In this document: positions 22,963-60,083 of the stretch, piece by piece
Layout: each line of letters starts with the position of its first letter
Numbering within the stretch: position 1 is the first letter of the stretch
From: Oscillospiraceae bacterium
Lineage (GTDB): Bacteria; Bacillota; Clostridia; Oscillospirales; Acutalibacteraceae
Reading direction: 5' to 3'
DNA length: 64,000 bases
Assembly (NCBI GenBank): GCA_902762875.1
Contig: CACWPS010000009.1
Coordinates: 1-64,000 of the forward strand
Program-made: the position numbers and the translations under genes
Notes under the pieces: model-generated
The model's database searches: none
Seen by the model: the letters and a program-made list of their open reading frames with translations, nothing else
What the model was told of the DNA's origin: nothing

Positions 22963-23196
22963 ATGAAAAAGGTTATTTGCAAGGTAGAGTATGACACCGA
23001 AAACTCCGAGCTCATTTTGAAAAAAACCTCGGGTAATTTCGGCGAGCCTGACGGCTATGAAGAAGCTCTCTACAAGACCGAAGGCGGCAAGTATTTTCTT
23101 TATGTAAACGGCGGCGAGGAATCCCCCTACACCAAAGAGGATATCAAGCGTATGGCGGCTGACAAGGCAGAGCTTTGGGTTAAAGAAAATTCATAA
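22963..23196 (+). CDS. Small acidic protein of unknown function
   Basis: A 77-residue protein starting MKKVICKVEYDTENSELILK. It is acidic, with alternating charged and hydrophobic residues suggesting three beta strands followed by a helix (YTKEDIKRMAADKAELWVKE). It has no cysteine cluster, signal or membrane segment, and I do not recognise the family. A GTG at 22954 would add three residues; AGGTG fits the ATG better. The stop codon lies inside the start of a structured repeat at 23193-23307. A leader with strong hairpins precedes it. The short length and good ribosome site make a real gene likely. Confidence 0.7.
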   Translation: MKKVICKVEYDTENSELILKKTSGNFGEPDGYEEALYKTEGGKYFLYVNGGEESPYTKEDIKRMAADKAELWVKENS

Positions 23197-23307
23197 TAAT
23201 CACCATTTCTTTGCAAGACACAAAATGCGATGAAAAATCACCGAAATGGTGATTATTATATCGCATCTGTTTCGGTTGCCTTTGGCAACAGTGATTTTTC
23301 ACGCTAA
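23193..23307 (+). repeat. Structured interspersed repeat, copy 1
   Basis: About 115 nt. Complementary arms: AATAATCACCATTTC (23195) with GAAATGGTGATTATT (23243); ATGCGAT (23225) with ATCGCAT (23260); GAAAAATCAC (23232) with GTGATTTTTC (23291); hairpin GTTGCC/GGCAAC (23275-23289). The arms interleave, so they form either a pseudoknot or alternative folds. A copy in opposite orientation is at 59935-60083. Confidence 0.85.
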
Positions 23308-23316
23308 CACTTTAAA

Positions 23317-23352
23317 AAATCGCCCTGAATGCAAAAGCATTCAGGGCGATTT
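23317..23352 (-). terminator. Terminator of proS
   Basis: Perfect 16-bp stem AAATCGCCCTGAATGC/GCATTCAGGGCGATTT with an AAAA (TTTT) loop. A/T runs on both sides allow use in both directions. Confidence 0.9.
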
Positions 23353-23368
23353 AATTTTATATTAATAT

Positions 23369-24802
23369 TTAATATGCCTTACCCCAATAAAGCATATGCT
23401 TAGCCTTCTTGCCGCAGCATACGCACTTGCCGTCAAGCTCCTCCTGTTCAAAGGGAATACAGCGTGAAGAAACTCCTGCATAATCCTTAAGCTTGTCCTC
23501 ACACTCACGGTCGCCGCACCACATAGCACGGATAAAGCCCGGCTTATTGTCGGCTATTTCTTTCATTTCATCAAGGTCGTGAGCATCAAAGGTCATATTT
23601 GCTCTGCGTTCGAGAGCCTTATTGTAAAGTCCGTCGTGTACCGCCTTTAAAAGCTCGGTAAGCTTTTCTTCAAGCTCGTCAAGGGATACAACCGTCTTTT
23701 CCCCGTTATCACGGCGTACAACAACACAGCAGTTGTTTTCAATATCCTTCGGTCCAAGCTCAACTCTAAGCGGAACGCCCTTCATTTCATACTCGGCAAA
23801 CTTCCAACCCGGAGACTGCTCGCCTGCGTCAATTTTAGCACGGCAAACCTTCTTCATTCGCTCGTATACCTCGTTTGCCTTATCAAGCACGCCCTCCTTG
23901 TGGGAAGCAATCGGAATAAGCACCGCCTGTATAGGAGCGATGGCAGGCGGAAGCACCAAACCGTTATCGTCACCATGGGTCATAATTATAGCGCCTATAA
24001 GTCTTGTAGATATACCCCATGAGGTTTCAAAGGGGGTTACGGAGTTGTTGTTTTTATCGGTATACTCAATTTCAAACGCCTTTGCAAAGCCGTCCCCGAA
24101 ATAATGGGAGGTTCCGCTCTGTAAGGCTTTACCGTCGTGCATAAGCGCCTCTATTGTATAAGTAGCCTCCGCTCCCGCAAAACGCTCTTTAGCGGTCTTT
24201 TCGCCCTTGATTACGGGTATGCACAAAAACTCCTCGGCAAAGCGGGCATAAATGTTAAGCATCTGCACAGTCTCTGCCTTTGCTTCCTCGGAGGTTGCGT
24301 GAAGGGTGTGTCCCTCCTGCCACAAAAACTCCCGAGAGCGCAGGAAGGGTCTTGTGGTCTTCTCCCAACGCACAACACTGCACCACTGGTTATAAAGCTT
24401 CGGCAGGTCACGATATGAATGAACTATATTTTTAAAATGGTCGCAGAAAAGGGTTTCGGAGGTAGGTCTTACGCAAAGCCTCTCCTCTAATTCCTCCTCT
24501 CCCCCGTGGGTCACCCAAGCAACCTCGGGAGCGAAGCCCTCAACATGATCCTTTTCCTTTTGAAGCAGGCTTTCGGGAATAAACATAGGCATATATACAT
24601 TTTCGTGCCCCGTTTCCTTGAACATACCGTCTACAATATGCTGAATGTTTTCCCAAATCGCATAGCCGTAGGGTCTTATTATCATACAGCCCTTAACCGA
24701 TGAATAATCAATTAAGTCTGCCTTAAGCACAACATCCGTATACCATTTAGCAAAATCCTCATCCATAGAGGTAATTGACTTAACAAGCTTTTCTTTTGCC
24801 AT
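23369..24802 (-). CDS. proS: Prolyl-tRNA synthetase (archaeal/eukaryote-like short type)
   Basis: About 477 residues; charges tRNA-Pro in the cytoplasm. It is the short ProS type without the bacterial INS editing insertion. Motif 2 region [22 protein letters not shown] and the anticodon-binding C-terminus are clear, and the end has the zinc-type cysteines CVCCGKK. I prefer the ATG at 24802 ([13 protein letters not shown]), although it lacks a clear ribosome site; a GTG at 24835 has weak support. The leader has GGAGCG/CGCTCC, able to form a hairpin before the ATG. I saw no T-box. Its substrate tRNA gene lies at 6914. Confidence 0.95.
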
Positions 24803-24945
24803 ACAAGGGAGCGTACAAACCGCTCCGCTTCCCACCTTTCATATCCGTAAATACATAACAATAAAACTATTATAAAGCAAATCTTTTAAATTTGCAACAT
24901 TTTTTAAATACTAATGTATAATTTTCAAAAAAGCATAAAAATCTA

Positions 24946-24974
24946 TTGACAAATAGCCAAAAAAAACATATTAT
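24946..24974 (+). promoter_or_regulatory. Sigma-A promoter of acpP
   Basis: TTGACA, a 17-nt spacer, and TATTAT, followed by an imperfect hairpin (GCCCACGGC...GCGGGC) and AGGAGGC ahead of acpP. Confidence 0.85.
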
Positions 24975-25044
24975 CTATTTATCAAGATTTAAAGCCCACG
25001 GCTTTTGCGGGCATATTCTTGTAAATTTTCAGGAGGCATAAATT

Positions 25045-25272
25045 ATGGTATTTGAAAAAATTAAAGAAATATTAGCGGAGCAGCTCGACGCTAACGCAGA
25101 AGAGATGACAATGGAGACCAGAATCGACGAGGATTTGGGTGCTGACAGTCTTGATGTTGTAGAACTGCTTATGTCAATAGAGGATGAGTTTGAGGTTGAA
25201 ATTCCCGATGAGGAAATTGAAAACCTTAAAACCATCGGCGATGTTGTAGAGTATATTCAAAGTAATATGTAA
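25045..25272 (+). CDS. acpP: Acyl carrier protein
   Basis: A 75-residue acidic four-helix protein that carries acyl chains on phosphopantetheine. The attachment serine lies in GADSLDVVELLMSIEDEF, the invariant DSL motif at about 34-36. Length and composition are typical of fatty-acid ACP. No fab genes are adjacent; instead an SGNH hydrolase follows after 14 bases. It may be the housekeeping ACP or a dedicated one for the neighbour. A strong promoter at 24946 and AGGAGGC upstream suggest high expression. Confidence 0.93.
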   Translation: MVFEKIKEILAEQLDANAEEMTMETRIDEDLGADSLDVVELLMSIEDEFEVEIPDEEIENLKTIGDVVEYIQSNM

Positions 25273-25286
25273 TAAGGATTAAAGCT

Positions 25287-25928
25287 ATGAGTTTAAAGAA
25301 TGTTCTCATTTTTGGGGATAGCTATTCTACCTTTGAAGGCTATATACCCGAGGGGTATGCTACCTATTACTCAAGCCTCGGCAGAGAAGAAACCGATGTG
25401 AGAGCTGTGGAAGATACCTGGTGGAATCCCCTGATTAATGAGACCGATTCAAAGCTTATCCAAAACAACAGCTGGTCCGGCTCTACAATATGCCATACCG
25501 GATATAACGGCAGTGACTGCTCGGAAACTTCCTCGTTTATATGCAGATTAAACAAGCTTCAGGACGCGGGATTTTTTAAGGAAAACGAGATAAACACCGT
25601 TTTTGTTTTCGGCGGCACTAATGACAGTTGGGCAAATTCACCTGTAGGCGAGCTTAAATACTCCAATTTGGAAAAAGCCGATCTTTTTTCGGTTTTGCCC
25701 GCCTTTTGCTACTTTATAAATGAACTAAAGTCCACACTTCCCAATGCCGATATTATTCCTATAATCAACACCGAATTAAAGTGCGAGATTGAGGAAGGCT
25801 TTAAGTCCGCCTGTGCAAATTACGGTATTAAACCCGTTGTTTTGCAGAATATTGATAAACGCTGCGGCCACCCTACAATTAAGGGTATGGAACAAATCAA
25901 AAATCAAATTATAGACAGCTTAGGCTGA
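25287..25928 (+). CDS. SGNH/GDSL-family hydrolase
   Basis: A 213-residue predicted esterase. Block I is LIFGDSYSTFEGY (Ser about 12), block III GGTND near 107, and the C-terminal block V GHPTIKG supplies the catalytic Asp/His region. There is no signal peptide, so it is cytosolic. It is only 14 bases behind acpP and shares its promoter, which invites a role in acyl-ester or carbohydrate-ester hydrolysis. The substrate is unknown. A bidirectional terminator follows. Confidence 0.85.
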   Translation: MSLKNVLIFGDSYSTFEGYIPEGYATYYSSLGREETDVRAVEDTWWNPLINETDSKLIQNNSWSGSTICHTGYNGSDCSETSSFICRLNKLQDAGFFKENEINTVFVFGGTNDSWANSPVGELKYSNLEKADLFSVLPAFCYFINELKSTLPNADIIPIINTELKCEIEEGFKSACANYGIKPVVLQNIDKRCGHPTIKGMEQIKNQIIDSLG

Positions 25929-25933
25929 TAAAA

Positions 25934-25964
25934 AATCGGGCAATCCATTTTGGATTGCCCGATT
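25934..25964. terminator. Bidirectional terminator
   Basis: Perfect 13-bp stem AATCGGGCAATCC/GGATTGCCCGATT with a 5-nt loop, between the convergent SGNH hydrolase and AbrB-like genes. Confidence 0.9.
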
Positions 25965-25978
25965 GCTTATTTAATAAC

Positions 25979-26239
25979 CTATTCAGCTTTATCCTTAATA
26001 CTATAGAGCTTTTCAATACAGTCCTTGCAGACATTATATCCCTCAAATTGGACGCTGTCCGCTAACGAATCACAGAAAATACAGGTAGGCTGGTACTTTT
26101 TAAGTACAACCTTATCACCGTCCATATAAATCTCAAAGCTGTCAACATCGTTTTCAACCTTAAGCTGCTTGCGGATTTCCTTCGGTATTACAACACGCCC
26201 CATTTTATCAACCGAGCGAACCATTCCCGTAGACTTCAT
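25979..26239 (-). CDS. AbrB/SpoVT-type regulator with C-terminal zinc ribbon
   Basis: An 86-residue DNA-binding protein. Residues 1-52 are a swapped-hairpin AbrB domain (MVRSVDKMGRVVIPKEIRK ... VVLKKYQP). Residues 53-80 add CIFC...CKDC, a likely zinc ribbon. AbrB proteins repress stationary-phase and sporulation genes by binding as multimers. Proteins with this added ribbon are common in Clostridia. It is convergent with the hydrolase and on its own, with AGGAGGTTATAAA before the ATG. Its regulon is unknown. Confidence 0.9.
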   Translation of the reverse strand: MKSTGMVRSVDKMGRVVIPKEIRKQLKVENDVDSFEIYMDGDKVVLKKYQPTCIFCDSLADSVQFEGYNVCKDCIEKLYSIKDKAE

Positions 26240-26322
26240 TTTATAACCTCCTTTTAATTTGCCTTATTTTAACATATTTAGTCATAATTTGTCAATAATG
26301 TTTTCGGAAGTTTACAATTTAT

Positions 26323-26991
26323 TTACAAATTTTCCCAATGAATTGTCTCTATGCCGTTTTGCTCAAGCAACGCATTTGCTTTTGAAAAATGCTTGCATCC
26401 CAAAAATCCCCTGTAAGCCGAAAGGGGGCTTGGATGGGGTGCGGTGAGCTTATAGTGCTTCGGATTGGTTATAACCGAAGCCTTTTTCACGGCGTTAGCC
26501 CCCCAAAGCAGAAAAACAATCGGCTGTTCCTTTTTATTTAGCTCCGAAATAATACGGTCGGTGAAGGTTTCCCAACCCTTATCCTTATGGCTGTTAGGTC
26601 TTCCTTCCCTTACGGTAAGCACGGTGTTAAGCAGCAGCACTCCCTGCCTTGCCCAACCCGTAAGCTCGCCGTGTTCAGGCATAGCCACCCTCAAATCATC
26701 GGTTATTTCCTTGTAAATATTAACAAGCGAGGGTGGAAGCGGAACTCCTTTTTTTACCGAAAAGCAAAGTCCGTGGGCCTGACCCGCCCCGTGATACGGG
26801 TCCTGCCCTATTATTACCACCCTTGTATCGGAAAACGAAGTGTATTTAAGGGCGTTAAAAATATCGTACATATCGGGATAAATACGCTGTGACGAATATT
26901 CGCTCTTTAAAAAGGAATGAAGCTGTTTATAGTAGGGCTTTTCCCACTCGTCGGCCAATATCCCGTCCCAATCGTTTCCTAATTTCACCAT
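26323..26991 (-). CDS. ung: Uracil-DNA glycosylase
   Basis: A 222-residue family-1 UDG that removes uracil from DNA. The water-activating Asp64 is in GQDPYHG, and the leucine loop motif HPSPLSAYRGF is near residue 190. It also has LLLNTVLTV and FLLWG, which are typical. Length is normal. It is one base downstream of the XRE regulator gene and probably in the same transcript, an unusual neighbour without clear meaning. Confidence 0.96.
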   Translation of the reverse strand: MVKLGNDWDGILADEWEKPYYKQLHSFLKSEYSSQRIYPDMYDIFNALKYTSFSDTRVVIIGQDPYHGAGQAHGLCFSVKKGVPLPPSLVNIYKEITDDLRVAMPEHGELTGWARQGVLLLNTVLTVREGRPNSHKDKGWETFTDRIISELNKKEQPIVFLLWGANAVKKASVITNPKHYKLTAPHPSPLSAYRGFLGCKHFSKANALLEQNGIETIHWENL

Positions 26992-26992
26992 A

Positions 26993-27559
26993 CTATTTCA
27001 CCAACCGCCACCATAAAAGTGCACCTGCCTGAAGCGGAACTCCGATTCCTAAAATCATCCATATATTATAATTCAAAAATTGCAGGCAAAAACAAAGCAA
27101 CAGCGACCACATAAGAAGTGATACCACAAGAAAAAACAGCTTTTTCCTATGCCATATAACATCGAAAACCAATGTTACAACAAGTGATGCAGGCACCGCC
27201 CAGCAAAAAGCAAGCCAAGGCTTCACACCTGCAATAATATCGCAGAATATGTATATAACCGTGACCAAAAGCCAAACCGCCAGCACCGATAAAAGTGTGA
27301 TTATATTATATTTTCGCCTCGCCGTAGGAGCGGGAGCGGTTTTTGCGGTTTCCTCGCCTACAATATAGTCAAGGCTTACCCCGTAAAGCTTGCTTAATTT
27401 ATAAAGCACCTCAACGCCGGGCAGAGATTCGCCCTTTTCCCACTTTGACACCGCCTTGTCGGAATAATTAAGCTTCTCGGCAAGCTCCGCTTGAGTAAAC
27501 CCGTTCTTCTTACGCAGGTCGGAAAGATTTTTTGAAACAATATAATTTAAGTTATCCAT
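26993..27559 (-). CDS. Membrane-anchored XRE-family regulator
   Basis: 188 residues from the ATG at 27559; an upstream frame to 27583 lacks support. Residues 1-60 form a Cro/CI HTH (LSDLRKKNGFTQAELAEKLN, then KAVSKWEKG). After a linker, four hydrophobic helices occupy about 85-185. Regulators of this layout bind DNA while tethered to the membrane and often govern nearby transporters or stress genes. None is adjacent here: ung is downstream and a HAD phosphatase upstream. The signal sensed is unknown. Confidence 0.85.
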   Translation of the reverse strand: MDNLNYIVSKNLSDLRKKNGFTQAELAEKLNYSDKAVSKWEKGESLPGVEVLYKLSKLYGVSLDYIVGEETAKTAPAPTARRKYNIITLLSVLAVWLLVTVIYIFCDIIAGVKPWLAFCWAVPASLVVTLVFDVIWHRKKLFFLVVSLLMWSLLLCFCLQFLNYNIWMILGIGVPLQAGALLWWRLVK

Positions 27560-27601
27560 ATAAAAATTATAGCATAAAAGCAAATGTTAGTCAATTTAAA
27601 A

Positions 27602-28312
27602 CTACAGCGACTGTTTTTCAATAAATTCCAGAAGCTCTCTAAAGCCGCCGCACGGATATTCGCTTATATCTATCCCCTTTTTGTTTATAAGGCAATCGGT
27701 AAGCAGGAAAACCTCAATTCCAACTGCTTTTGCCGCAGTATCCTCTGCGGCGTCATTACCAACCATAAGACACTCCGATGGGTTTAGAGAAAGCTTTTTT
27801 AGAATTTCCGAATAATATGCCGGGTTAGGCTTGCAGTAATGGGAGTTTTCATAGGTTGTGTAAAGCTCAAAATCCCTCTTGTCAAGCCCCGCCCATTCAA
27901 TTCTACTTTCGGTTGCAACAGCGGGAAAAATGGGATTAGTTGCAAGAATAAGCTTATATCCATTTTCCTTTAATTTCTTTACTGTTGCAGCAGCCTCGGG
28001 ATTAAAACCGCAGTCGGACTTTACCTCATTAAATTCGTTGCGGTAATACTCATCAAAAATCGGCTTATCATCATTTACCTTTTCGCCAAAAATTTCTTTA
28101 AACTTAATCCAAAATGCCTCTTCATTGGTACGCTTGCCGTCATTCTTCACCATTGCCGCCGTACCCGCCCATATGCCGTCAACGGTTCTTTGCGGCTCGT
28201 AGCCGAGGGGAGCAAGTTTTTTTACAAGCCGGCTAAAATATCCGTTTGCAAACCTGTCCTGATCCATCGGCAAAAGAGTGCCGTCCAAATCAAAGAGAAT
28301 GTTTTTAATCAT
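27602..28312 (-). CDS. HAD-superfamily phosphatase
   Basis: 236 residues from the ATG at 28312. The nucleophile motif is LFDLDGTLLP, motif II ILATNP, then a lysine near 170 and motif IV VGNDAAEDTAA, all in order. A helical cap lies between motifs I and II, so it is a C1-cap HAD hydrolase. The substrate is probably a small phosphometabolite and cannot be named. It is transcribed in the same direction as the XRE gene with a 42-nt gap. Confidence 0.88.
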   Translation of the reverse strand: MIKNILFDLDGTLLPMDQDRFANGYFSRLVKKLAPLGYEPQRTVDGIWAGTAAMVKNDGKRTNEEAFWIKFKEIFGEKVNDDKPIFDEYYRNEFNEVKSDCGFNPEAAATVKKLKENGYKLILATNPIFPAVATESRIEWAGLDKRDFELYTTYENSHYCKPNPAYYSEILKKLSLNPSECLMVGNDAAEDTAAKAVGIEVFLLTDCLINKKGIDISEYPCGGFRELLEFIEKQSL

Positions 28313-28420
28313 TAAAATCACCCGATTACATTTTAGCATTTAAGTGCGTTTTGTCAAGAAAATATGTAAAAAAAGTATATCTTAGCATACCTTGGCAATA
28401 ATACAGACGAGGTGATTTTA

Positions 28421-28873
28421 ATGCAATTAACACAAAAGGAAACTGAATTATTAAAGGATTTAAAATCTCAGGAAAAGCTTTGTGCGGAAAAATATATGCA
28501 GTATTCCCAATCCGCCAAAGACCCACAGCTTAAAAATCTATTTTCACAGATAGGCGGTGTAGAACAGAACCATTTAAAAACAATCGAACAGCTGGAAAGC
28601 GGAACAGTTCCGACTCCGTCGGGCGGTTCTCCCTCTCAACCGACATTTACCGCAAACTATGCGGTTGCCGAGACAGAGGACAAAAAGCACGACTGCTATC
28701 TCTGTACCGACGCATTAACAACCGAAAAGCACGCTTCCCACCTGTATGACACCTGCATATTTGAGTTTAAGCAGGAAAATGTAAGGACACTTCTTAACGG
28801 TATTCAAAAGGAAGAGCAAAACCACGGTAAGATGATTTACGATTATATGTCCGCAAATTCAATGTACGCTTAA
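28421..28873 (+). CDS. Coat-F/ferritin-like spore coat protein
   Basis: A 150-residue protein in two homologous helical halves joined by a Pro/Ser/Gly linker (about 72-85). The first half carries KSQEKLCAEKYMQYSQSAKDP and the second KHASHLYDTCIFEFKQENVRT, each with E/H patterns of the ferritin-like CotF family. A CYLC near 97-100 could bind metal. The ATG at 28421 follows GAGGTGATTTTA. It probably coats the spore and supports the sporulation inferred from Spo0A and YpeB. It is monocistronic with a terminator behind. Confidence 0.8.
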   Translation: MQLTQKETELLKDLKSQEKLCAEKYMQYSQSAKDPQLKNLFSQIGGVEQNHLKTIEQLESGTVPTPSGGSPSQPTFTANYAVAETEDKKHDCYLCTDALTTEKHASHLYDTCIFEFKQENVRTLLNGIQKEEQNHGKMIYDYMSANSMYA

Positions 28874-28877
28874 AGAT

Positions 28878-28914
28878 AAAAGACTGTTGTCTGATTGAGG
28901 CAACAGTCTTTTTT
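28878..28914 (+). terminator. Terminator of the coat protein gene
   Basis: AAAGACTGTTG/CAACAGTCTTT stem (11 bp) with an 11-nt loop and a T run, ending before the tRNA-Gly promoter region. Confidence 0.9.
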
Positions 28915-28989
28915 AGAAAAAATTTAAAAAATAGTTTCAAAAACTCTTGACTTATTTAAGCTATTGTGATAATATATTAAAGTCATTTT

Positions 28990-29064
28990 GCGGGTGTAGT
29001 TCAATGGCTAGAATCCCAGCCTTCCAAGCTGGTCGTGTGGGTTCGATTCCCATCACCCGCTCCA
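28990..29064 (+). tRNA. tRNA-Gly (anticodon TCC)
   Basis: Complete cloverleaf: acceptor GCGGGTG/CACCCGC, D arm GTTC...GAAT (one G-T), anticodon stem CAGCC/AGCTG-side with loop CTTCCAA (anticodon TCC), T arm GTGGG/CCCAT with loop TTCGATT, discriminator T and encoded CCA. The terminator begins directly behind it. Confidence 0.97.
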
Positions 29065-29098
29065 AAAATCCCTTAGACGATAGTCTAAGGGATTTTTA
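29064..29098 (+). terminator. Terminator of tRNA-Gly
   Basis: Perfect 15-bp stem AAAAATCCCTTAGAC/GTCTAAGGGATTTTT with a GATA loop. The tRNA CCA end touches its 5' arm. Confidence 0.92.
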
Positions 29099-29110
29099 CT
29101 TTTTTACCTC

Positions 29111-29131
29111 TTCACTATTCACTCTTCACTT
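29111..29131 (+). repeat. Heptamer tandem repeat (TTCACTN x3)
   Basis: TTCACTA TTCACTC TTCACTT, three perfect 7-nt units, 12 nt after the tRNA-Gly terminator. It lies in the convergent space before the AraC gene end. Confidence 0.8.
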
Positions 29132-29156
29132 TTATATACTTTTCTGCGGAATTTCT

Positions 29157-29957
29157 TCAATATTCATTAAAACGACGGCAAAATTCCCGAGGTGAGCTTC
29201 CCTCCGACTTGCAGAACGCCTTAGAAAAATACAAAGGGTCTGTAAATCCGCAGGAAAGTGCGGTCGCCTTTACCGACACTCCCCTCTTTAAAAGCTCTTT
29301 AGCCCGCTCTATTCTGTACTCCGCAAGATAAGCTCCAGGTGAAATACCACAGCTTTTTACAAAGCTTCGGTGCAGGGTTACACGGCTTATATTAAGCTCT
29401 TTGCATATCGATTCAAGCCCGAATTCCGACTTGTGGTATGAACTGCGGATCATTACGCAGGCAGAATCAAAATAAACGCTTTCACACATTTTTTGCCCGC
29501 TTTTCGGGAACCGCTCGGAATAGACCGAAAGAATGGCGCTTACAACATTTTCCGATGTATCGGAAAAGCGTATTCCGCCTGTAGGCTTATATATATTGCG
29601 AAGATAATCAAATAAGGGCAAAATTAATTCGGGCTTAACATAATCTATTACATAGCCACCGTCGCAAAGCTTAATTTTATCCAGCAAAAGCAAAAAATCT
29701 TCCCCCAAAAATTCTATCCAGGTATACTCCCACGGGTCATTTTTGTCGGGATAGTAATGCACCTCGGTAAAGGGGCGTATCAAAAAGCTTTGACCGGCAG
29801 TTATATAATTAACTTTCCCTTCGCAAATATAATATCCGCTTCCCCTGATTATATAGTGAATAATATACTGGGTTCTAAAGCAGGGCCCAAAGGAATGCAT
29901 ATCGGCACAGTCTTGCCTTCCGCAAACAATATGATTCATTTTTTTACTGCTTTTCAT
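29157..29957 (-). CDS. AraC-family transcriptional regulator
   Basis: A 266-residue regulator. The N-terminal cupin sensing domain (about 15-120, including RGSGYYICEGKVNYITAG and SFLIRPFTEVHYYP) should bind a sugar. The C-terminal ~100 residues hold two HTH motifs (LESICKELNISRVTLHRSF and VKATALSCGFTDPLYFSKAF). It is transcribed divergently from the GH27 alpha-galactosidase, and a long inverted repeat sits between them, so it is most likely the galactoside-responsive activator of that gene and perhaps of itself. Confidence 0.93.
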   Translation of the reverse strand: MKSSKKMNHIVCGRQDCADMHSFGPCFRTQYIIHYIIRGSGYYICEGKVNYITAGQSFLIRPFTEVHYYPDKNDPWEYTWIEFLGEDFLLLLDKIKLCDGGYVIDYVKPELILPLFDYLRNIYKPTGGIRFSDTSENVVSAILSVYSERFPKSGQKMCESVYFDSACVMIRSSYHKSEFGLESICKELNISRVTLHRSFVKSCGISPGAYLAEYRIERAKELLKRGVSVKATALSCGFTDPLYFSKAFCKSEGSSPREFCRRFNEY

Positions 29958-29987
29958 ATCTGCTTACTCCTGTTAATGTGAAACAAT

Positions 29988-30020
29988 TTTCCATATTTTT
30001 GAAACAAAAAAATATGGAAA
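29988..30020. promoter_or_regulatory. Inverted-repeat operator between araC-type gene and galactosidase
   Basis: TTTCCATATTTTT and AAAAATATGGAAA, 13-bp perfect arms with a 7-nt centre. The right arm covers the -35 of the galactosidase promoter, as a regulator binding site would. Confidence 0.8.
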
Positions 30021-30043
30021 TTAAAGGTGTTCTAATATATAAT
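30015..30043 (+). promoter_or_regulatory. Promoter of the GH27 gene
   Basis: TGGAAA (poor -35), 17-nt spacer, TATAAT. The weak -35 overlapped by the operator fits activator dependence. Confidence 0.7.
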
Positions 30044-30078
30044 CAGTTTACAATATTTTTTAATGGAGGTCAATAGCA

Positions 30079-31206: not shown

Positions 31207-31397
31207 TGTCCTGCTGTATTCGATGCGGAAAAGAGCTTAACAGCATTGATATAGGCGCTCATAAAAAGTTCATAAACCGAGGCAGTACCGAGTTTATGTG
31301 CAAAAGCTGTTTGGCTGACGAGCTAAAAGTGCCCGAAAAGCTAATCGATAAAAAAATCGAACATTTCAAAAAGCAGGGCTGTACTCTGTTTTTATAG
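31206..31397 (+). CDS. Small zinc-binding protein
   Basis: A 63-residue protein. CIRC at 4-7 and CKSC near 37-40 form a four-cysteine zinc site, and a fifth Cys lies near the C-terminus (KKQGCTLFL). The C-terminal half is a basic amphipathic helix (LKVPEKLIDKKIEHFKKQG). Its ATG overlaps the galactosidase stop (TAATG), so it is translationally coupled to it. A nucleic-acid or protein-binding role is possible; nothing in the sequence ties it to galactosides except position. Confidence 0.8.
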   Translation: MSCCIRCGKELNSIDIGAHKKFINRGSTEFMCKSCLADELKVPEKLIDKKIEHFKKQGCTLFL

Positions 31398-31400
31398 CGA

Positions 31401-31445: not shown

Positions 31446-31457
31446 ATTGTATACGCT

Positions 31458-32699: not shown

Positions 32700-32709
32700 T
32701 ATGCTACCT

Positions 32710-47703: not shown

Positions 47704-47710
47704 ATATATT

Positions 47711-51250: not shown

Positions 51251-51268
51251 ATTTTTCAGGAGAAGTCT

Positions 51269-52612: not shown

Positions 52613-52637
52613 ATTATATAAATTTTCATTGTATAAT
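52609..52637 (+). promoter_or_regulatory. Sigma-A promoter of purA
   Basis: TTGAAT, 17-nt spacer, TATAAT. The -35 overlaps the stop codon of the MATE gene. Confidence 0.8.
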
Positions 52638-52693
52638 GAAATGTAACTGTGCAAAAACGGTTACGCAGTATTTTGAAATGAGGTACTCGAATT

Positions 52694-53971
52694 ATGGTTA
52701 AAGCTGTTGTAGGCGCTAACTGGGGCGACGAAGGTAAAGGTAAGATTACCGATATGTTAGCAGGAAATGCTGATATTGTAGTCCGTTTTCAGGGCGGTGC
52801 AAATGCCGGTCACACAATAAAGAACAAATACGGTAAATTTGCGCTTCACACTCTGCCGTCGGGCGTTTTTAACGAGGGTGTTATTAACTGCATCGGAAAC
52901 GGCGTTGCCCTTGATGTTGATAAGCTTTTGAATGAATATAATTCCGTTGTGGAAAAGGGCGTTCCCGCTCCTCGGCTTATGGTTTCCGAGCGTTGCCAGA
53001 TGGTTATGCCCTATCATGTCCTCTTTGATGTTTACGAGGAAGAGAGACTCGGCAAGGCAAGCTTCGGTTCAACCAAATCGGGTATTGCCCCATTCTATTC
53101 GGATAAATATGCTAAAATCGGATTCCAAGTCTGCGAGCTGTTTGACGAAAAGGCGCTCAAAGAAAAATTAGAGCGTGTTTTAGAGGTTAAGAACATTCTT
53201 ATTAAAAATCTTTACCATAAGGATCCCCTTTCGGTTGATGAAATTTTTAACAAAATGATGGAATGGAAAAAGGGTATTGAACCCTTTGTAGGGGATGTAA
53301 GAAAGCTTGTATACGAGGCTGATAAGTCGGGTAAAACCGTGCTTTTAGAGGGTCAGCTGGGCACCTTAAAGGATACCGACCACGGCATTTATCCCATGGT
53401 TACATCATCTAACACAATAGCGGGCTACGGTGCTGTAGGCGCAGGCGTTCCCCCTTACGCAATAAAGGAAATTTATACCGTTATAAAGGCTTATTCCTCT
53501 GCTGTAGGCGCAGGTGCCTTTGTAAGCGAGATTTTCGGTGACGAGGCTAAGGCTATGCGGGATCACGGCGGCGACGGCGGCGAATACGGCGCTACCACCG
53601 GCAGACCCCGCAGAATGGGGTGGTTTGACTGCGTTGCCACACGCTACGGCTGTGAGGTTCAGGGTACAACCCACGCTGTACTTACTGTTGTTGATGCCCT
53701 TTCCTACCTTGACGAGATTAAGGTTTGCGTAGGGTACGAAATTGACGGCAAGGTTACAAAGGACTTCCCCGTTACCGGACTGCTGGAAAAGGCAAAGCCT
53801 GTTTTGGTAACTCTCCCCGGCTGGAAGTGCGATATTACGGGAATTAAGAATTACGCTGACCTGCCCGAAAATTGCAGAGCCTACATAGAATTCATCGAAA
53901 AAGAAATCGGCTTTAAGATTGTAATGGTAAGTAACGGTCCTGCCCGTGAAAACATCATAATTAAAGATTAA
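52694..53971 (+). CDS. purA: Adenylosuccinate synthetase
   Basis: A 425-residue GTP-dependent enzyme joining IMP and aspartate, the first step from IMP to AMP. GANWGDEGKGK near 7-17 and QGGANAGHTI near 33-42 hold the catalytic Asp and His, and the tail TRYGCEVQGTTHAVLT is conserved. Length is normal. It starts a plus-strand group followed by yhaM with an 11-nt gap. Confidence 0.97.
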   Translation: MVKAVVGANWGDEGKGKITDMLAGNADIVVRFQGGANAGHTIKNKYGKFALHTLPSGVFNEGVINCIGNGVALDVDKLLNEYNSVVEKGVPAPRLMVSERCQMVMPYHVLFDVYEEERLGKASFGSTKSGIAPFYSDKYAKIGFQVCELFDEKALKEKLERVLEVKNILIKNLYHKDPLSVDEIFNKMMEWKKGIEPFVGDVRKLVYEADKSGKTVLLEGQLGTLKDTDHGIYPMVTSSNTIAGYGAVGAGVPPYAIKEIYTVIKAYSSAVGAGAFVSEIFGDEAKAMRDHGGDGGEYGATTGRPRRMGWFDCVATRYGCEVQGTTHAVLTVVDALSYLDEIKVCVGYEIDGKVTKDFPVTGLLEKAKPVLVTLPGWKCDITGIKNYADLPENCRAYIEFIEKEIGFKIVMVSNGPARENIIIKD

Positions 53972-53982
53972 CGGAGAACAAT

Positions 53983-54954
53983 ATGAATTTTACTCCTATT
54001 GACGGCAGCGGTCTTGTTGACGGCTTCTGTCTCATAAAAAGCATTGACCAAAAGACCTCCTCAAAGGGTGACACATACCTTGATATGACCCTTTCGGACT
54101 CGGACGGGGAGATTAATGCCAAGCTCTGGCGCTACAATAAGGCTACCCACGGCGAATATGGGATTAATGACCTTGTTAAAATTCGGGGGATGATTTCCCA
54201 GTACAACGGCGCAGACCAATTAAAGATTGAAAAAATCAGGCCCGTAACCCCCGAGGACGGCGTTAATATCTCCGATTTTGTAAAGTCGGCAGATTATTCA
54301 GGCGAGCAGATGTTTGGGGAGCTCTACAGGCTTGCTGAAAGCTTCTGTGACGAGGATTTAAGAAAAATTGTAACCGCTATACTTGAGGATAACCGCTTAG
54401 CTCTGCTTTATTGGCCCGCCGCCTTTAAGCTTCACCATGCGGTGCGGGGAGGACTGCTCCTTCACACCCTTTCGATAGTGCGGCTTGCCGAGGGCGTTTG
54501 CAGGGTATACCCCTTTGTTGACCGTGAGCTGTTAATTTCGGGCGCAATACTTCACGATATTGCAAAGCTTTCGGAATTCAAGGTTGCGGACACAGGCATA
54601 GCCACGGGATATTCGGCAGAGGGCAACCTTTTAGGACACCTTGCAATGGGGGCTATGGTAATAGATAAGTATGCCGAAAAGCTTAATATCAACCCCAAAA
54701 CCGCAATGCTTCTTGAGCATATGGTGCTTTCCCACCACGGCGAGCCCGAGTTCGGTGCGGCGGTAAGACCTATGTTTATTGAGGCAGAGCTTTTAAGCGA
54801 GCTTGACCTTATGGACTCCCGTATTTACGAAATGCGTGAGGCGGTATCTGCCGCTCCGGCAGAGGATTTTTCCGCAAGGGTCTGGGCTATGGAAAACCGC
54901 AAGCTTTACAACCACACAAGAACGGATTTGAATAAAAAAACAGAACTGTTTTAA
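53983..54954 (+). CDS. yhaM: 3'-5' exoribonuclease YhaM-like
   Basis: A 323-residue protein with an N-terminal OB-fold (about 1-90: DMTLSDSDGEINAKLWR) and a C-terminal HD phosphohydrolase domain. His residues HHAVRGGLLLHT and the HD pair ILHDIAKL near 190 are clear, with HHGEPE further on. This is the YhaM/CBF1 exoribonuclease arrangement used in RNA turnover. It lies between purA and a DUF1858 gene. Confidence 0.9.
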   Translation: MNFTPIDGSGLVDGFCLIKSIDQKTSSKGDTYLDMTLSDSDGEINAKLWRYNKATHGEYGINDLVKIRGMISQYNGADQLKIEKIRPVTPEDGVNISDFVKSADYSGEQMFGELYRLAESFCDEDLRKIVTAILEDNRLALLYWPAAFKLHHAVRGGLLLHTLSIVRLAEGVCRVYPFVDRELLISGAILHDIAKLSEFKVADTGIATGYSAEGNLLGHLAMGAMVIDKYAEKLNINPKTAMLLEHMVLSHHGEPEFGAAVRPMFIEAELLSELDLMDSRIYEMREAVSAAPAEDFSARVWAMENRKLYNHTRTDLNKKTELF

Positions 54955-54979
54955 TAATAAAAAAGAAAGGTGATTTAAA

Positions 54980-55180
54980 ATGAAGATTACAAAGGATATG
55001 CTTATAGGCGAAGTATTGGATATGGACACAGATGCCGCTGAATACTTTTTTGAGATTGGTATGCACTGCTTAGGCTGCCCCGCATCAAGAGGAGAGAGCA
55101 TTGAGCAGGCGTGCGAGGTTCACGGAACCGACTGTGACGCACTTGTAGAAAAGCTTAACCGCTATTTTGAAAACAAATAA
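54980..55180 (+). CDS. DUF1858 small protein
   Basis: A 66-residue protein: MLIGEVLDMDTDAAEYFFE followed by GMHCLGCPASRGESIEQACE. It matches the DUF1858 / hybrid-cluster-associated small domain with a CxxC motif; the pair of cysteines is often proposed to bind metal or to act in disulfide exchange. It is transcribed between yhaM and trmK, overlapping trmK by one base. Function is unknown. Confidence 0.88.
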   Translation: MKITKDMLIGEVLDMDTDAAEYFFEIGMHCLGCPASRGESIEQACEVHGTDCDALVEKLNRYFENK

Positions 55181-55866
55181 TGTCTTTAAGCAAAAGACTT
55201 AAGCTTATAGCCTCCCTTGTGCCGAAAGGTGCAAGGGTTTGCGATATAGGAACAGACCACGCACGGTTGCCCATTTACTTGATTGAAAACAATATTGCCA
55301 AGGGTGTAATTGCAACCGATATTCGCCCCCTGCCCCTTGAAAACGCCAAGAAAAATGTTGCGGCTTCGGGGGTTAAGGGAATAGAATTACGCCTTTGTGA
55401 CGGGCTTTCAGCCGTAAAAAAGAGTGAAACCGATACGGTAATAATAGCGGGAATAGGCGGAGAGGTTATCTCGGGTATCATATCCCGAGGGGAGCTTTTG
55501 CTCGAACAGCCCTATCCCCTCTTAATTTTACAGCCCACCACCTCACCCGAGGCTTTAAGACGGTATCTTTATGAAAACGGTTTTGAAATTTTAACCGAAA
55601 CCCCGCTTAAAGAAAACGGAAAGCTGTATTCTGTTATGACGGCTTGTTTTACCGGTAAAGCCAAAGAAATGCCCGAACACTTTTACTTTACAGGCAAGCT
55701 TGACCCCAAAGCAGAGGACGGATATTTATACATACAAAAGCAGTACATCCGGATTAAAAATTGTGCAGACGCACTTATTGATATACCCGAAAAGCAGGCA
55801 GAATATCTGCATTATAAAAAGCTTTCCGACCAAATACTAAAATTTTTGACAGATAAGCAGGAATAA
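55180..55866 (+). CDS. trmK: tRNA (adenine22-N1)-methyltransferase
   Basis: A 228-residue SAM enzyme methylating A22 of tRNA. The SAM motif VCDIGTDHARLPIYLIE opens it, and GIGGEVISGII and LILQPTTSPEALRRYLYE follow, a pattern specific to the TrmK/YqfN family. A C-terminal helical domain from about 165 fits too. Its ATG overlaps the DUF1858 stop (TAATG). Confidence 0.92.
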   Translation: MSLSKRLKLIASLVPKGARVCDIGTDHARLPIYLIENNIAKGVIATDIRPLPLENAKKNVAASGVKGIELRLCDGLSAVKKSETDTVIIAGIGGEVISGIISRGELLLEQPYPLLILQPTTSPEALRRYLYENGFEILTETPLKENGKLYSVMTACFTGKAKEMPEHFYFTGKLDPKAEDGYLYIQKQYIRIKNCADALIDIPEKQAEYLHYKKLSDQILKFLTDKQE

Positions 55867-55868
55867 AA

Positions 55869-57554
55869 ATGGCATTTGACGGCGGTTTTTTACACCGAAT
55901 TATCCAAGAACTGAATAACGCCGACGATTCCCATGTGGACAAAATATACCAGCCCTCTAAGGACGAGCTGGTTCTTTTGTTGCGCAAAAAAGGATTTGCA
56001 AAAAGGCTTTTAATCTCTGTAAAGCAGGGCTCTGCCCGTATTCAGTTTACCGAAAATAAATACGAAAATCCCGCAACACCTCCCATGTTTTGTATGCTTA
56101 TAAGAAAATACCTTTCTGCCGCAAGGCTTATTAAGGTGACGCAACCCGCCCTCGAAAGAATAACCGAGCTTACCTTTTCATATACAAACGAAATGGGAGA
56201 TATTGCTGAAATACGCCTTATTGCTGAATTTATAGGCAATAAAACCAATATTCTGCTTGTGGGGGCAGACAGAAAGATTATAGACTGCCTTCGCAAAAGC
56301 GACCCTGAAACCGCCGACCGCCTGCTTTTACCGGGTGCCCGGTACGAATATCCCCAAAATCAGGGAAAGCTTAATCCCCTAACGGCTGATGCAGAGGAAA
56401 TATGCTCGGCGGCAATCGCTCACGGGGGAGACTCCGCCAAAGCATTGCTCGAGAGTATCGACGGCTTTTCTCCCCTTGTTTGCAGGGAGGCGGTTTATAA
56501 GTCGGAAGTCACTGGAAGTCTTAGTTCAGCATTAAGCGATATTCTAACCGATTTAAAAGAGGGCGGCACACCTGTTATCCTTATGAAAACGGACGGCACA
56601 CCCTACGATTTTTCTTATACAGATATTTCCCAGTACTCGAATGAGTTTTCAAAACAAAGCTTTGAAAGCTATTCCGAGCTTTTAGATGCTTTTTATACCG
56701 CACGGGAAAATTCCGAAAGGCTTAAGCGCTCTGCCTCAGATATAATTAAGCTTGTAACAAATCTTCGTGCCCGCACCGAAAGGAAGCTTGCAATACGGCT
56801 TAATGACCTTAAAAAGTGCGAAAATCGGGAGACCCTTAGAATTTACGGCGAGCTTTTAAAGGCAAATCTGTACAGGCTCAAAAACGGTGCGGCCTTTGCC
56901 GAGGTTGAAAACTACTACGATGAAATGAAGCCTGTAAGAATCCCTTTAAATCCCGCCCTTTCACCCCAGAAAAACGCAGACAAGTATTTTAAGGATTATA
57001 AAAAATCCTATACCGCCGAGCGCACACTCACAGACCTTACAAAAAAGGACGAGGAGGAGCTTAAATATTTCGACTCGGTGCTTGACAGCATTGCTCGAAG
57101 CGTTTCCCTTTCGGAAATTTCCGAAATAAGGGAGGAATTGGCGCTCGCAGGCTATATAAAGCAAAACGGCACACACAAAAAGAAAAGCTCTGCCGTGCCG
57201 CAGTTTAAGGAATACGCCTCGGACGAGGGATATAAAATACTTGTGGGCAAAAATAACCGCCAAAACGATTATTTAACAACCGTGCTTGCCGCAAAGAACG
57301 ATTTATGGTTTCATGTCAAGAATATCCCCGGCTCCCATGTGATAGTGATGTGCCGAGGGGGCGAGGTTTCGGAAGAAACAATAATGAAGGCGGCGGCTTT
57401 AGCGGCGGCTAATTCAAAAGCGGCAGATTCTTCGCAGGTGCCCGTGGATTACACCCCCGTAAAATTTGTCAAAAAACCGAGCGGCGCAAAACCGGGAATG
57501 GTCATCTACACAACAAATAAAACCGTTTTTGTAACACCGCAAAATTTTACTTGA
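55869..57554 (+). CDS. rqcH: Ribosome quality-control protein RqcH (NFACT)
   Basis: A 561-residue protein with NFACT-N (1-~210: AFDGGFLHRIIQEL ... RIQFTENKYENP), a long coiled coil (about 280-400) and an NFACT-R domain at the C-terminus (DLWFHVKNIPGSHVI). It binds obstructed 50S subunits and adds alanine tails to stalled peptides, with tRNA-Ala. Formerly called fibronectin-binding protein. It directly follows trmK with a 2-nt gap. Confidence 0.94.
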   Translation: MAFDGGFLHRIIQELNNADDSHVDKIYQPSKDELVLLLRKKGFAKRLLISVKQGSARIQFTENKYENPATPPMFCMLIRKYLSAARLIKVTQPALERITELTFSYTNEMGDIAEIRLIAEFIGNKTNILLVGADRKIIDCLRKSDPETADRLLLPGARYEYPQNQGKLNPLTADAEEICSAAIAHGGDSAKALLESIDGFSPLVCREAVYKSEVTGSLSSALSDILTDLKEGGTPVILMKTDGTPYDFSYTDISQYSNEFSKQSFESYSELLDAFYTARENSERLKRSASDIIKLVTNLRARTERKLAIRLNDLKKCENRETLRIYGELLKANLYRLKNGAAFAEVENYYDEMKPVRIPLNPALSPQKNADKYFKDYKKSYTAERTLTDLTKKDEEELKYFDSVLDSIARSVSLSEISEIREELALAGYIKQNGTHKKKSSAVPQFKEYASDEGYKILVGKNNRQNDYLTTVLAAKNDLWFHVKNIPGSHVIVMCRGGEVSEETIMKAAALAAANSKAADSSQVPVDYTPVKFVKKPSGAKPGMVIYTTNKTVFVTPQNFT

Positions 57555-57569
57555 GAAAGGAGTACAGCT

Positions 57570-58370
57570 GTGAAAATCGGAGTATCAACCTCTTGCTTTT
57601 ACCCTCTTGAAACCGAGGTTGCTTTAGAAAATCTCGGCAAAGCGGGAATAAAGCACACGGAAATCTTTTTCAATGCCCTAAGTGAGCTAAAGCAAAGCTT
57701 TGTGGATATGCTCCTTGACATTCAAAGTGAATACGGGATAACGGTTGCCTCTGTTCATCCCACAATGTCCCTTGCCGAGTCATTTATGATTTTTTCAAAC
57801 TATGAACGAAGATACCGTGAAGCAGAGGATCAGTTCCGCAGGTATTCCGAAATTGCGGCACAATTAGGCGCTAAATATATTATAATGCACGGCGGAAAGC
57901 CCAACGGAATATTAAGCGATGAAGAGTACTGTGAGAGGTATATGAGGCTTAAGGAAGTTACCCGCCAAAACGGCATAGATATCTTGCAGGAAAATGTCGT
58001 CCGCTTCAGGGCGGGTGAAATTGACTTTCTGCGTTCGATGAAAAATATTTTAGGCGATGAAGCCGAGCTTTGCATAGACTTAAAGCAGTCGCTTCGCTGT
58101 GGGTATAACCCGTATGACCTTATCAACGAATTTTCCGATAACATCAAGCACTACCACATAAGCGACCACAGCATTTCCTCCGACTGTCTGTTGCCCTTAA
58201 ACGGCGGCTTTGATTTTGAAAACTTTTTTTCGGTGCTTAAAAGCAAGGGCTTTAACGGCTCCTGCATCATTGAAGTTTATAAGGATTGCTACAACTCTTA
58301 TGAGAATGTTTACAATTCTTTTAATAAACTTAAAAATTGCTATTGCAATATTCTCGAAAATAGGTTATAA
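57570..58370 (+). CDS. Sugar phosphate isomerase/epimerase-like TIM-barrel protein
   Basis: A 266-residue protein of the AP-endonuclease-2/xylose-isomerase-like superfamily. KIGVSTSCFYPLE at the start, IIMHGGKPNG near 100, DILQENVVRF near 145, CIDLKQSLRCGYNPYD and the terminal CIIEVYKDCYNSYE carry the metal-binding Glu, His and Asp pattern. It probably isomerises a sugar or inositol derivative. It follows rqcH by 15 bases; no pathway partner is adjacent. Function is uncertain. Confidence 0.82.
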   Translation: MKIGVSTSCFYPLETEVALENLGKAGIKHTEIFFNALSELKQSFVDMLLDIQSEYGITVASVHPTMSLAESFMIFSNYERRYREAEDQFRRYSEIAAQLGAKYIIMHGGKPNGILSDEEYCERYMRLKEVTRQNGIDILQENVVRFRAGEIDFLRSMKNILGDEAELCIDLKQSLRCGYNPYDLINEFSDNIKHYHISDHSISSDCLLPLNGGFDFENFFSVLKSKGFNGSCIIEVYKDCYNSYENVYNSFNKLKNCYCNILENRL

Positions 58371-58406
58371 TGAGTTGTAATTGTTGAAAGGAGTTAGTGT
58401 TATACA

Positions 58407-59171
58407 GTGAATAACATATCTTTAGTAGATCTTCTCAAGCTTGCATTAAAGTATATCTATATTTTGATTGCCGTAGCCTTAGTCGCCGCCATTGTTGCGT
58501 TTTCTTACTGCAATTTTGTTGCCGAGCCAAGGTATTCTTCAACAGGCTCCATCGTTGTTACAAACGGTGCGATTATCAGCGATATCTCGGCACAAACCGC
58601 AAGCGACACAACCTCGAAAAAGGTAAGCGGTTCTGATATTTCCGCATCGCTTCTGCTCTCTAATACAATCATTGATATTCTCAATACTAATGATATTTAT
58701 AAGCAACTCGCTTCCGAATTGGGTGACAAATATTCATATACAAATTTAATGAACAGGGCTACAGTCAAGCAGCGCAATGAAGACACCCTCTTTATTGATG
58801 TTTCCTTCTCCGCCGATACACCCGAGGAGGCTCAAACTCTTGTTAATAACTTTTTAGAGATTGTTCCCGACTATATTGCAAAATTTATTCCCGGTTCTAC
58901 AGCGTCTGTAACCACAACTGCGGACAGAGCGGTAAAAATTTATCCCCAAACCTCAAGAACCGTATTTATCGCTGCAATGGCAGGTGCGGTATTATCCTAT
59001 GCAATCATTTTTATCATATCATTATTTAACACAACTATAAAAAACGAAGATGATATAAAGAATAATTATGATTTAACCGTTTTAGGCAATATTCCTGATT
59101 TTTCATCTGCGGCGGCAAATAAAAATAAATACTATGGATATTCAAGGAAGGAGTCTACGAATGTCAAATAA
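58407..59171 (+). CDS. Wzz/YveK-like polysaccharide co-polymerase
   Basis: A 254-residue membrane protein with a GTG start. Transmembrane helices lie at about 15-35 and 190-212, with the loop between them outside. The arrangement, SGYILIAVALVAAIVAF near the start and the C-terminal PQTSRTVFIAAMAGAVLSYAIIF, is that of the BY-kinase activator (CpsC/CapA type). Its cytoplasmic end should contact the kinase encoded next. The gene overlaps the following one by 11 bases, so they are coupled. Confidence 0.88.
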   Translation: MNNISLVDLLKLALKYIYILIAVALVAAIVAFSYCNFVAEPRYSSTGSIVVTNGAIISDISAQTASDTTSKKVSGSDISASLLLSNTIIDILNTNDIYKQLASELGDKYSYTNLMNRATVKQRNEDTLFIDVSFSADTPEEAQTLVNNFLEIVPDYIAKFIPGSTASVTTTADRAVKIYPQTSRTVFIAAMAGAVLSYAIIFIISLFNTTIKNEDDIKNNYDLTVLGNIPDFSSAAANKNKYYGYSRKESTNVK

Positions 59172-59874
59172 AAGTGATGTTTCTGCAGTTTCCTCCGAAA
59201 AAGAAAATAACGAGATCCAGTCTTTAAAAAAGGTGCCCTTTGCGGTTTCCGAAGCGTACAAGAATATCCGTACTAACCTGATTTCTGCGCTGGTAAAGCA
59301 AGACAAAAAAACCGTAGTGATTTCAAGTCCGAACGCTTCAGACGGTAAATCCACTACCTCAATTAATGTTGCGATTTCTCTTTCACAAATCAACAAAAAA
59401 GTGCTCCTTATTGATGCCGATGCACACCGTCCCACCATTCACACAAAGCTGAAAATGAAGAACAATGACGGTATTATAAATGTTTTAATCGGTGTTTCAA
59501 CCTTCAGCGAAGCTGTTCAGCAATATAATTCCAGGCTTGATATTTTGACCGTAGGTCCTATTCCTCAGAACGCCGCCGAAATTTTCAACGATCCCTCTTT
59601 TGACGAGTTGCTTGATGAGTTAAACGAAAAATACGATTACATAATACTTGATACTCCGCCTGTAAATCTCATTTCGGATTCACTTGTAATTGCTCAAAAG
59701 GTAGGCGGCATTATCTTTGTGGTTCGCTCAGGCTTTACAACCCGTGAGATGCTTCGCCGTGCTGTAGCAAGTGCAAAACAGCTCGATATTAACATACTCG
59801 GCGTTATACTTAACGGCACTGATTTCAGCAAAAACGGGTATCATAAAAAATATTACGGCTCTTACTACAATTAA
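59161..59874 (+). CDS. BY-type tyrosine kinase CpsD/CapB-like
   Basis: 237 residues from ATG 59161, which has AAGGAAGGAG before it. Walker A is SSPNASDGKST near 63, Walker A' VLLIDADAHRPT near 93, Walker B YIILDTPPV near 160. The C-terminal cluster of tyrosines (YHKKYYGSYYN) is the autophosphorylation site. It acts in controlling polysaccharide polymerisation with the Wzz-like protein encoded before it and is dephosphorylated by the PHP phosphatase encoded after it. Confidence 0.93.
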   Translation: MSNKSDVSAVSSEKENNEIQSLKKVPFAVSEAYKNIRTNLISALVKQDKKTVVISSPNASDGKSTTSINVAISLSQINKKVLLIDADAHRPTIHTKLKMKNNDGIINVLIGVSTFSEAVQQYNSRLDILTVGPIPQNAAEIFNDPSFDELLDELNEKYDYIILDTPPVNLISDSLVIAQKVGGIIFVVRSGFTTREMLRRAVASAKQLDINILGVILNGTDFSKNGYHKKYYGSYYN

Positions 59875-59877
59875 TTT

Positions 59878-59918
59878 AGGACGGGCGGCCGCCTATTATT
59901 TCGCGGCTGTCCGTTCCT
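59878..59918 (+). terminator. GC-rich hairpin after the kinase gene
   Basis: AGGACGGGCGGCCGC and GCGGCTGTCCGTTCCT pair imperfectly around a 10-nt loop, 4 nt after the kinase stop. There is no T run, so partial termination or a stability element is possible. Confidence 0.55.
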
Positions 59919-59934
59919 ACTATTTGGGAGGAAT

Positions 59935-60083
59935 TTAGCGTGAAAAATCACGCTAAAAATTATAAAGACGCCTGTTTCTCGCCTTTGTTACCAAAGGCAA
60001 CCGAAACAGATGCGATATAACAATCACCATTTCGGTGAATTTTCATCGCATTTTGTGTCTTGGAAAGAAATGGTGATTATTAT
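59935..60083 (-). repeat. Structured interspersed repeat, copy 2
   Basis: About 149 nt, near-identical to 23193-23307 in reverse orientation, with an insertion in the loop between GTTGCC and GTGATTTTTC. The differences A to G in the second long arm and C to T in GGTAAC keep G-U pairs in the minus-strand RNA. It also holds the palindrome TTTAGCGTGA/TCACGCTAAA. It runs into the first codons of the PHP phosphatase gene. Confidence 0.85.

Follow-up and report, generated by a model that had tools for sequence, protein, structure and literature searches.

A small mobile element of gut Clostridia inserted between Shine-Dalgarno sequence and start codon, with a structured RNA that may gate translation

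The window analysed here is a stretch of 64,000 nucleotides (nt) from an Oscillospiraceae bacterium of the Acutalibacteraceae (assembly GCA_902762875.1, contig CACWPS010000009.1, positions 1 to 64,000). It carries two copies of a short folded repeat in inverted orientation, which agree over 98 nt with 96% identity (23193-23290 and 59986-60083). A preliminary description of the sequence had reported this near-identical pair and the interleaved arm order a-b-c-a'-b'-c', and both are present. The same description counted two copies, but in the genome of the window (G000) the family has ten matches: subfamily fam1 accounts for six (the two in the window and those on contigs C5, C2, C7 and C6) and subfamily fam2 for four (contigs C8, C14, C3 and C16). 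Copy 2 is a full-length element on the plus strand, while copy 1 is internally deleted and has lost the 5' sides of helices P2, P3 and P4 together with part of the left hairpin. In either copy, each strand folds more strongly than dinucleotide shuffles (z from -4.3 to -8.3; 1, 0, 0 and 0 of 200 shuffles folded as well as the native sequence in the four cases). The element is about 140-175 nt long and contains no transposase gene. Read in gene sense, it opens with TTAGCGTGAAAAATCACGCTAA and closes with GGTGATT, and in most copies ATT and the ATG of the next gene follow. The native Shine-Dalgarno sequence (SD) lies directly 5' of the element, and a new SD, in the form GGTGAT, GGAGAT or GGTCAT, is found at its 3' end, a few bases 5' of the start codon. 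This position and the carried SD had been missed in the earlier reading.

In total, 129 copies were tabulated, all found by similarity alone (70 by blastn and 59 by covariance model), and they are related to each other and belong to genomes derived from metagenomes. Of the 118 copies with a usable right end, 109 have the start codon of an open frame just 3' of the element. The distance was exactly 4 nt in 92 of these 109, and the codon was ATG in 106 and GTG in 3. By comparison, the start-codon test was passed by 8.8% of random positions in the window and by 6.8% of its intergenic positions, and 0.75% of the intergenic positions passed it with a distance of exactly 4 nt. Among the nine copies that failed, copy 2 and L106 precede long open frames with no ATG at the expected place, L032 and copy 1 occupy TATTAT or ATTATG sites that are not starts, and L097, L125, L126, L288 and L305 are doubtful or degenerate. 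The word TATTAT alone was considered as the cause of the start-codon sites and rejected; the window has 24 intergenic TATTAT words, two of them before G.

Occupied and empty sites could be compared with sister species in seven cases, five at an SD-ATG site and two at a TATTAT or ATTATG that does not serve as a start. For purE, the sister genome G054 reads GGAGGAT-C-ATTATG, and the genome of the window reads GGAGGAT-[element]-ATTATG. The genes typA, rimO and that of an O-acetylhomoserine sulfhydrylase likewise carry the element in G000 and have an empty site in G054, and at guaA the situation is reversed. For L032 and copy 1, the sister sequence gives the native TATTAT and ATTATG, respectively. 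Copy 1 lies past the stop of the plus-strand gene at 22954-23196. Sister species without the element before the cpsB-like gene downstream of copy 2 have the same SD, followed by a short spacer. Empty and occupied sites differ by one to three bases. The comparisons at purE, typA, rimO, guaA and the O-acetylhomoserine sulfhydrylase gene gave no visible target duplication, and the aligned ends, TAGCGTG.. and ..GGTGATT, are not inverted copies of each other. The element is mobile and prefers the site between SD and start codon. In genome G046, the second element of locus L080 comes directly after the apparent right end of another one.

The RNA fold was analysed in an alignment of 51 copies, with the helices H1, P2, P3, P4, P5 and the SD helix (Table 1). 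Pairing was retained in 95.4% of 2421 cells, and neither this value nor the share of pairs with both-sided changes, 21 of 48, was reached by any of 500 shuffles. Helices slid along the alignment paired in 33.5-49.1% of cells. The case of a single repeat pair without covariation, raised in the preliminary description, therefore did not arise. In the SD helix, the new SD pairs with a strand whose commonest form is AATCACC, which we take to resemble the anti-SD tail of 16S ribosomal RNA. Helices P2 and P5 cross the SD helix, so that they either form a pseudoknot with it or replace it, and the nested fold leaves the SD free. A decoy segment can pair with the anti-SD strand in 82.5% of cells and with the left hairpin in 89.2%, with weaker covariation. 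In modelling, the fold that hides the SD was the more stable one in 40 of the 51 copies. Of the earlier interpretation, the mobile and structured nature of the element and its competing or pseudoknotted helices are supported; the strand and the differences cited for it did not stand. The RNA strand proposed then is the opposite of the one that reads into genes. The change from GATTATT to GATTGTT does give a G-U pair in the earlier orientation, but in gene sense it leaves copy 2 with an A-C mismatch in its SD helix. The change from GGCAAC to GGTAAC, described as an arm change, falls in the loop of the small hairpin, which reads GCCTTTG-TTAC-CAAAGGC in full copies. These two differences do not demonstrate selection at the RNA level. 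Across the alignment, G-U cells in gene sense outnumber A-C cells by 90 to 32 with one pair left out (G-U in 41 of 50 copies), and strand-specific selection on an RNA in gene sense is suggested by this count.

The genes behind the element are unrelated to each other. Twenty downstream proteins of our choice were searched against NCBIfam or Pfam, and 18 matched a family (L031 and L034 did not). The families comprise CpsB/CapC, RimO, PurE, TypA, a Clp ATPase fragment, O-acetylhomoserine sulfhydrylase, GMP synthase (guaA), 6-phosphofructokinase, D-Ala-D-Ala ligase (ddl), pyruvate carboxylase B, indolepyruvate oxidoreductase, zinc carboxypeptidase, ValS, alanine racemase (alr), peptidyl-tRNA hydrolase (pth), TsaD, histidinol-phosphatase and a PLDc_N protein. 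Several of these genes are usually essential, and the element therefore cannot be a permanent off-switch. An ordinary cis-regulatory RNA, that is, a riboswitch-like leader of a regulon copied by recombination under selection and never truly transposed, would account for the conserved fold with its hidden or free SD and for the orientation of the start-codon copies towards the gene. This explanation is very improbable, as sister species lack the element at the same genes, the downstream genes share no common pathway, and some copies lie away from start codons. In addition, no Rfam match was obtained over the element, either in the window at gathering scores or at six loci up to E = 1. The purE leader contains a known regulatory RNA in addition to the element: a ZTP riboswitch (L035:221-299, contig C8), directly 5' of the element-bearing purE gene, was kept despite the insertion, giving two layers of RNA control in one leader.

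Copy for copy, the bases that lie just inside the anti-SD strand correspond to the native flank on the right, as in ATTTTA/TAAAAT, ATAAAA/TTTTAT, ATCATA/TATGAT and AACA/TGTT. This was evaluated by permuting flanks among copies 20000 times, with positions 1-4 on the right side and 2-4 on the left. On the right side, fam1 gave 192 matches against 158.2 expected (0/20000), the fam1 copies of G046 alone 64 against 54.5 (1/20000), and fam2 43 against 36.1 (45/20000). The left side gave 86 matches against about 66 (0/20000). Such matching could mean either that a guide within the element chose the target or that the helix adapted once the element had inserted. At typA, the guide is a better fit to the empty site of the sister than to the present flank, which favours a guide-chosen target; at guaA, it is a better fit to the present flank than to that of the sister, which favours later adaptation. 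Pairing of both flanks with internal bases, together with insertion between SD and ATG, would also be expected of a small intron-like or retro-element, in which the flanks act like exons and removal of the RNA would rejoin SD and ATG. Of the explanations weighed here this is the least credible, since the six loci gave no match to group I or II introns in Rfam up to E = 1, the copy-rich genomes G046, G029, G041, G036, G030 and G047 gave no RVT_1 match, and a carried SD would be needless in an excised intron.

A DNA-only element of the IS200/IS605 type that a Y1 transposase mobilises in trans has been considered as well. Hairpins and flank pairing would then serve the transposition of single-stranded DNA, and the RNA fold would have no role. 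The lack of target duplication and the hairpin ends agree with this, Y1_Tnp (PF01797) is present in 42 of 61 genomes of the genus, and target-adjacent bases pair with internal ones, much as IS608 is said to recognise its target through base pairing (PMC5934647). Neither enzyme profile is associated with the element: Y1_Tnp occurs in 16 of 22 element-positive and 26 of 39 negative genomes, and RVT_1 in 5 of 22 and 11 of 39, where a positive genome is one with a fam1 blastn match and some negatives carry fam2. Both profiles are absent from the copy-rich genomes G041 and G036. Because Y1 is equally common without the element, and because transposition alone leaves the covariation of P3 and P4 and the start-codon site unexplained, we regard a purely DNA-level element as unlikely. 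Twenty partial matches were read in search of a longer autonomous copy; they were truncated, diverged or at contig ends, and no gene was recognised inside the element. Two contigs of genome G007 (C33 and C23, loci L357 and L358) share their first 140 nt, which consist of about 91 nt of unfamiliar sequence joined to a fam2 right end, and this variant is perhaps a longer form cut by the assembly.

The reading that we favour, with a probability of roughly 0.7, is that of a non-autonomous mobile element of gut Clostridia that targets translation start sites and gates translation by means of its RNA. The copies, their sites, the empty sites and the covariation are observed; the gating and a contribution of flank pairing to target choice are inferred. 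The family would spread within the genomes of a gut Clostridia group by inserting, without visible target duplication, into the few bases that separate SD and start codon, and would take over initiation through the new SD at its own 3' end. The internal anti-SD strand could hide this SD in a long helix, and the competing nested fold of P2, P3, P4 and P5 would free it. As essential genes carry the element, the SD must open in normal growth; it might do so through translation from the old SD into the element, through the nested fold, or through a factor binding at the CTCGCC..GGCAACCG hairpin. It is unusual for a mobile element to insert at the most sensitive point of essential genes and to put its own initiation signal in place of theirs, when these genes must stay expressed. 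Should the gate be real, transposition would have built a shared translational control across many unrelated genes. More tentatively, and with more doubt than belief, it can be proposed that the element finds start sites by pairing. The guides would read the native spacer with the AT of ATG and the bases behind the SD, and insertion would swap in an SD and an anti-SD strand mimicking the 16S rRNA tail, so that dozens of genes, essential ones included, would share one translational gate. This would represent a compact system for finding start codons through base pairing.

The first of the possible openers would require a translated leader. An SD-like motif lies 5-10 nt before the GTG of the element in 46 of 53 copies, and the leader may therefore be translated. 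Sixteen of the 53 leaders stop at the anti-SD strand, 16 within 30 nt before the new SD and 2 in between, and another 2 read in frame into ddl. At L110 and L112, the ddl loci of G028 and G038, an open frame runs through the element into the gene, which would extend the D-Ala-D-Ala ligase at its N-terminus. With a ribosome modelled at the start of the leader, the mean accessibility of the SD was 0.14. A coupling of leader translation to SD opening is possible but weakly supported, and the nested fold or a factor at the CTCGCC hairpin are the alternatives. A conserved leader peptide was considered and rejected, as the frames shift between copies. Translational attenuators of the erm type combine a leader open reading frame (ORF), a hidden SD and alternative helices. 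The present element shares the hidden SD and the alternative helices with them, and possibly the leader ORF, but it is mobile, precedes many unrelated genes and has no conserved leader peptide.

Several results weigh against the favoured reading. No mobilising enzyme was found among the Y1_Tnp and RVT_1 profile matches in the 61 genomes of the genus. In the genome of the window, two of the ten copies lie away from start codons, and an SD-like pattern, loosely defined, precedes the element in just 83 of the 109 start-codon copies. The right-side flank matching was not significant for fam3 (72 against 69.7, 4699/20000) or in the single-genome tests of G046 fam3, G029, G030, G000 fam1, G000 fam2 and G036. 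Counted per pair, the G-U bias amounts to just 24 against 14 (p = 0.14). The leader frame is not conserved, and in 17 of the 53 copies the leader ends before it reaches the anti-SD strand. With a ribosome modelled at the leader end, the mean accessibility of the SD rose just from 0.16 to 0.32, with values above 0.6 in just 3 of 51 copies.

Small folded non-autonomous repeats are known as a broad kind, whereas the insertion site, the flank matching and an SD carried along with an anti-SD strand appear to be new as far as the literature was searched. No description of such an element was found in listings and abstract openings of the open-licence literature. Miniature inverted-repeat transposable elements (MITEs) and the BOX, RUP, SPRITE and RPE repeats are likewise short, non-autonomous, multicopy and strongly folded, and RPEs also enter genes (PMC10969869, PMC3049150). 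The present element differs from them in having neither inverted terminal repeats nor target duplication, in its start-codon sites and in carrying an SD and an anti-SD strand. The main text of a 2024 review of prokaryotic MITEs does not contain the terms 'start codon', 'ribosome binding' or 'Shine-Dalgarno' (PMC10969869). REP and REPIN sequences with their RAYT (TnpA-REP) and IS200/IS605 elements share the hairpin ends and the absence of target duplication; in contrast, the present element is longer, has conserved internal helices and start-codon sites, and is not associated with Y1. In marine Beggiatoaceae, TAACTGA repeats stand just 5' of the start codons of unrelated genes and a role in translation has been proposed for them, but these are short 7-nt direct repeats, mostly without SD, that overlap the expected ribosome-binding site (PMC4679880).

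The presence of the element is patchy. It was detected by blastn in 22 of the 61 genomes of the genus. One related genome has 48 matches. With the covariance model and stricter filters, 11 of 250 genomes and 10 of 135 genera were positive at family level. Outside the family, 1 of 15 genomes sampled from the rest of the order was positive. In named genomes, a pattern scan found 49 stretches with the titles Clostridia, Clostridiales, Oscillospiraceae, Ruminococcaceae or Ruminococcus. The same plan is kept by relatives in G320, G072 and Vescimonas fastidiosa, and one of the four copies seen (L297) precedes a start codon. These order-level relatives (L296, L297, L315 and L391) retain the CTCGCC..GGCAACCG hairpin and the end stems, and the Vescimonas fastidiosa copy is located at the 3' end of a MATE transporter gene. 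Subfamily fam3 (L276-L293 in G046 and L127-L129 in G029) has a distinct left hairpin, GTTTGAAAGATAAATCTTCCAAAC, and the end GGTCAT, and shares the hairpin core and the start-codon site with the other subfamilies. Searches of plasmids and phages gave just weak partial Citrobacter plasmid matches for fam1 and no match for fam3; fam2, searched in plasmids, gave none. With an order-level relative as query, the plasmids yielded a single Vescimonas fastidiosa record and the phages no match, and two pattern scans of viral contigs gave no element.

Table 1. Features of the two element copies and of the gene downstream of copy 2 (window coordinates)
Feature	Position	Strand	Basis
Copy 1, internally deleted	23193..23307	-	sequence and sister sequence
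GGGAGG, native SD of the cpsB-like gene, now 5' of the element	59926..59931	+	sequence
Copy 2, full element as matched	59935..60083	+	sequence, family searches; boundary from empty sites
H1, left-end hairpin TTAGCGTGAAAAATCACGCTAA	59935..59956	+	sequence; helix 1 of covariation analysis
Candidate leader ORF, GTG to TAA, 26 codons, in reach of native SD	59940..60020	+	
P2, 5' strand AAGACGC	59965..59971 (partner 60055-60061)	+	helix 2, covariation
P3, encloses P4	59972-59978 with 60003-60009	+	helix 3, covariation
Conserved CTCGCC..GGCAACCG core in the P3/P4 region	59972..60009	+	recurs in other subfamilies
P4	59981-59987 with 59992-59998	+	helix 4, covariation
P5, 5' strand ATGCGAT	60010..60016 (partner 60045-60051)	+	helix 5, covariation
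Anti-SD strand ATAACAATCACCATTTC; initial bases are the putative right guide	60017..60033	+	helix 6, covariation; flank matching
Decoy GGTGAATT, other partner for anti-SD strand or left hairpin	60034..60041	+	weaker covariation
SD helix, 3' strand GAAATGGTGATTATTAT, with new SD GGTGAT at 60072-60077	60067..60083	+	helix 6, covariation
CpsB/CapC-like downstream gene	60079..60819	+	PF19567, E = 7e-48

The final bases of the copy 2 match (about 60079-60083) are probably native flank. The CpsB-like gene probably starts at a non-ATG codon (ATT, 60079) or within the element (ATG, 60070). Read by eye, the same gene has an apparent ATT start in the sisters G054 and G060 (L244 and L245 among the loci) and TTG in G032, a possible non-canonical start. 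Elsewhere in the window, three tRNA-like 39-mers form a direct repeat at 6952-7395, just the first of which lies within a scored tRNA, and a purine riboswitch aptamer (49 bits) is found on the minus strand at 13821-13920.

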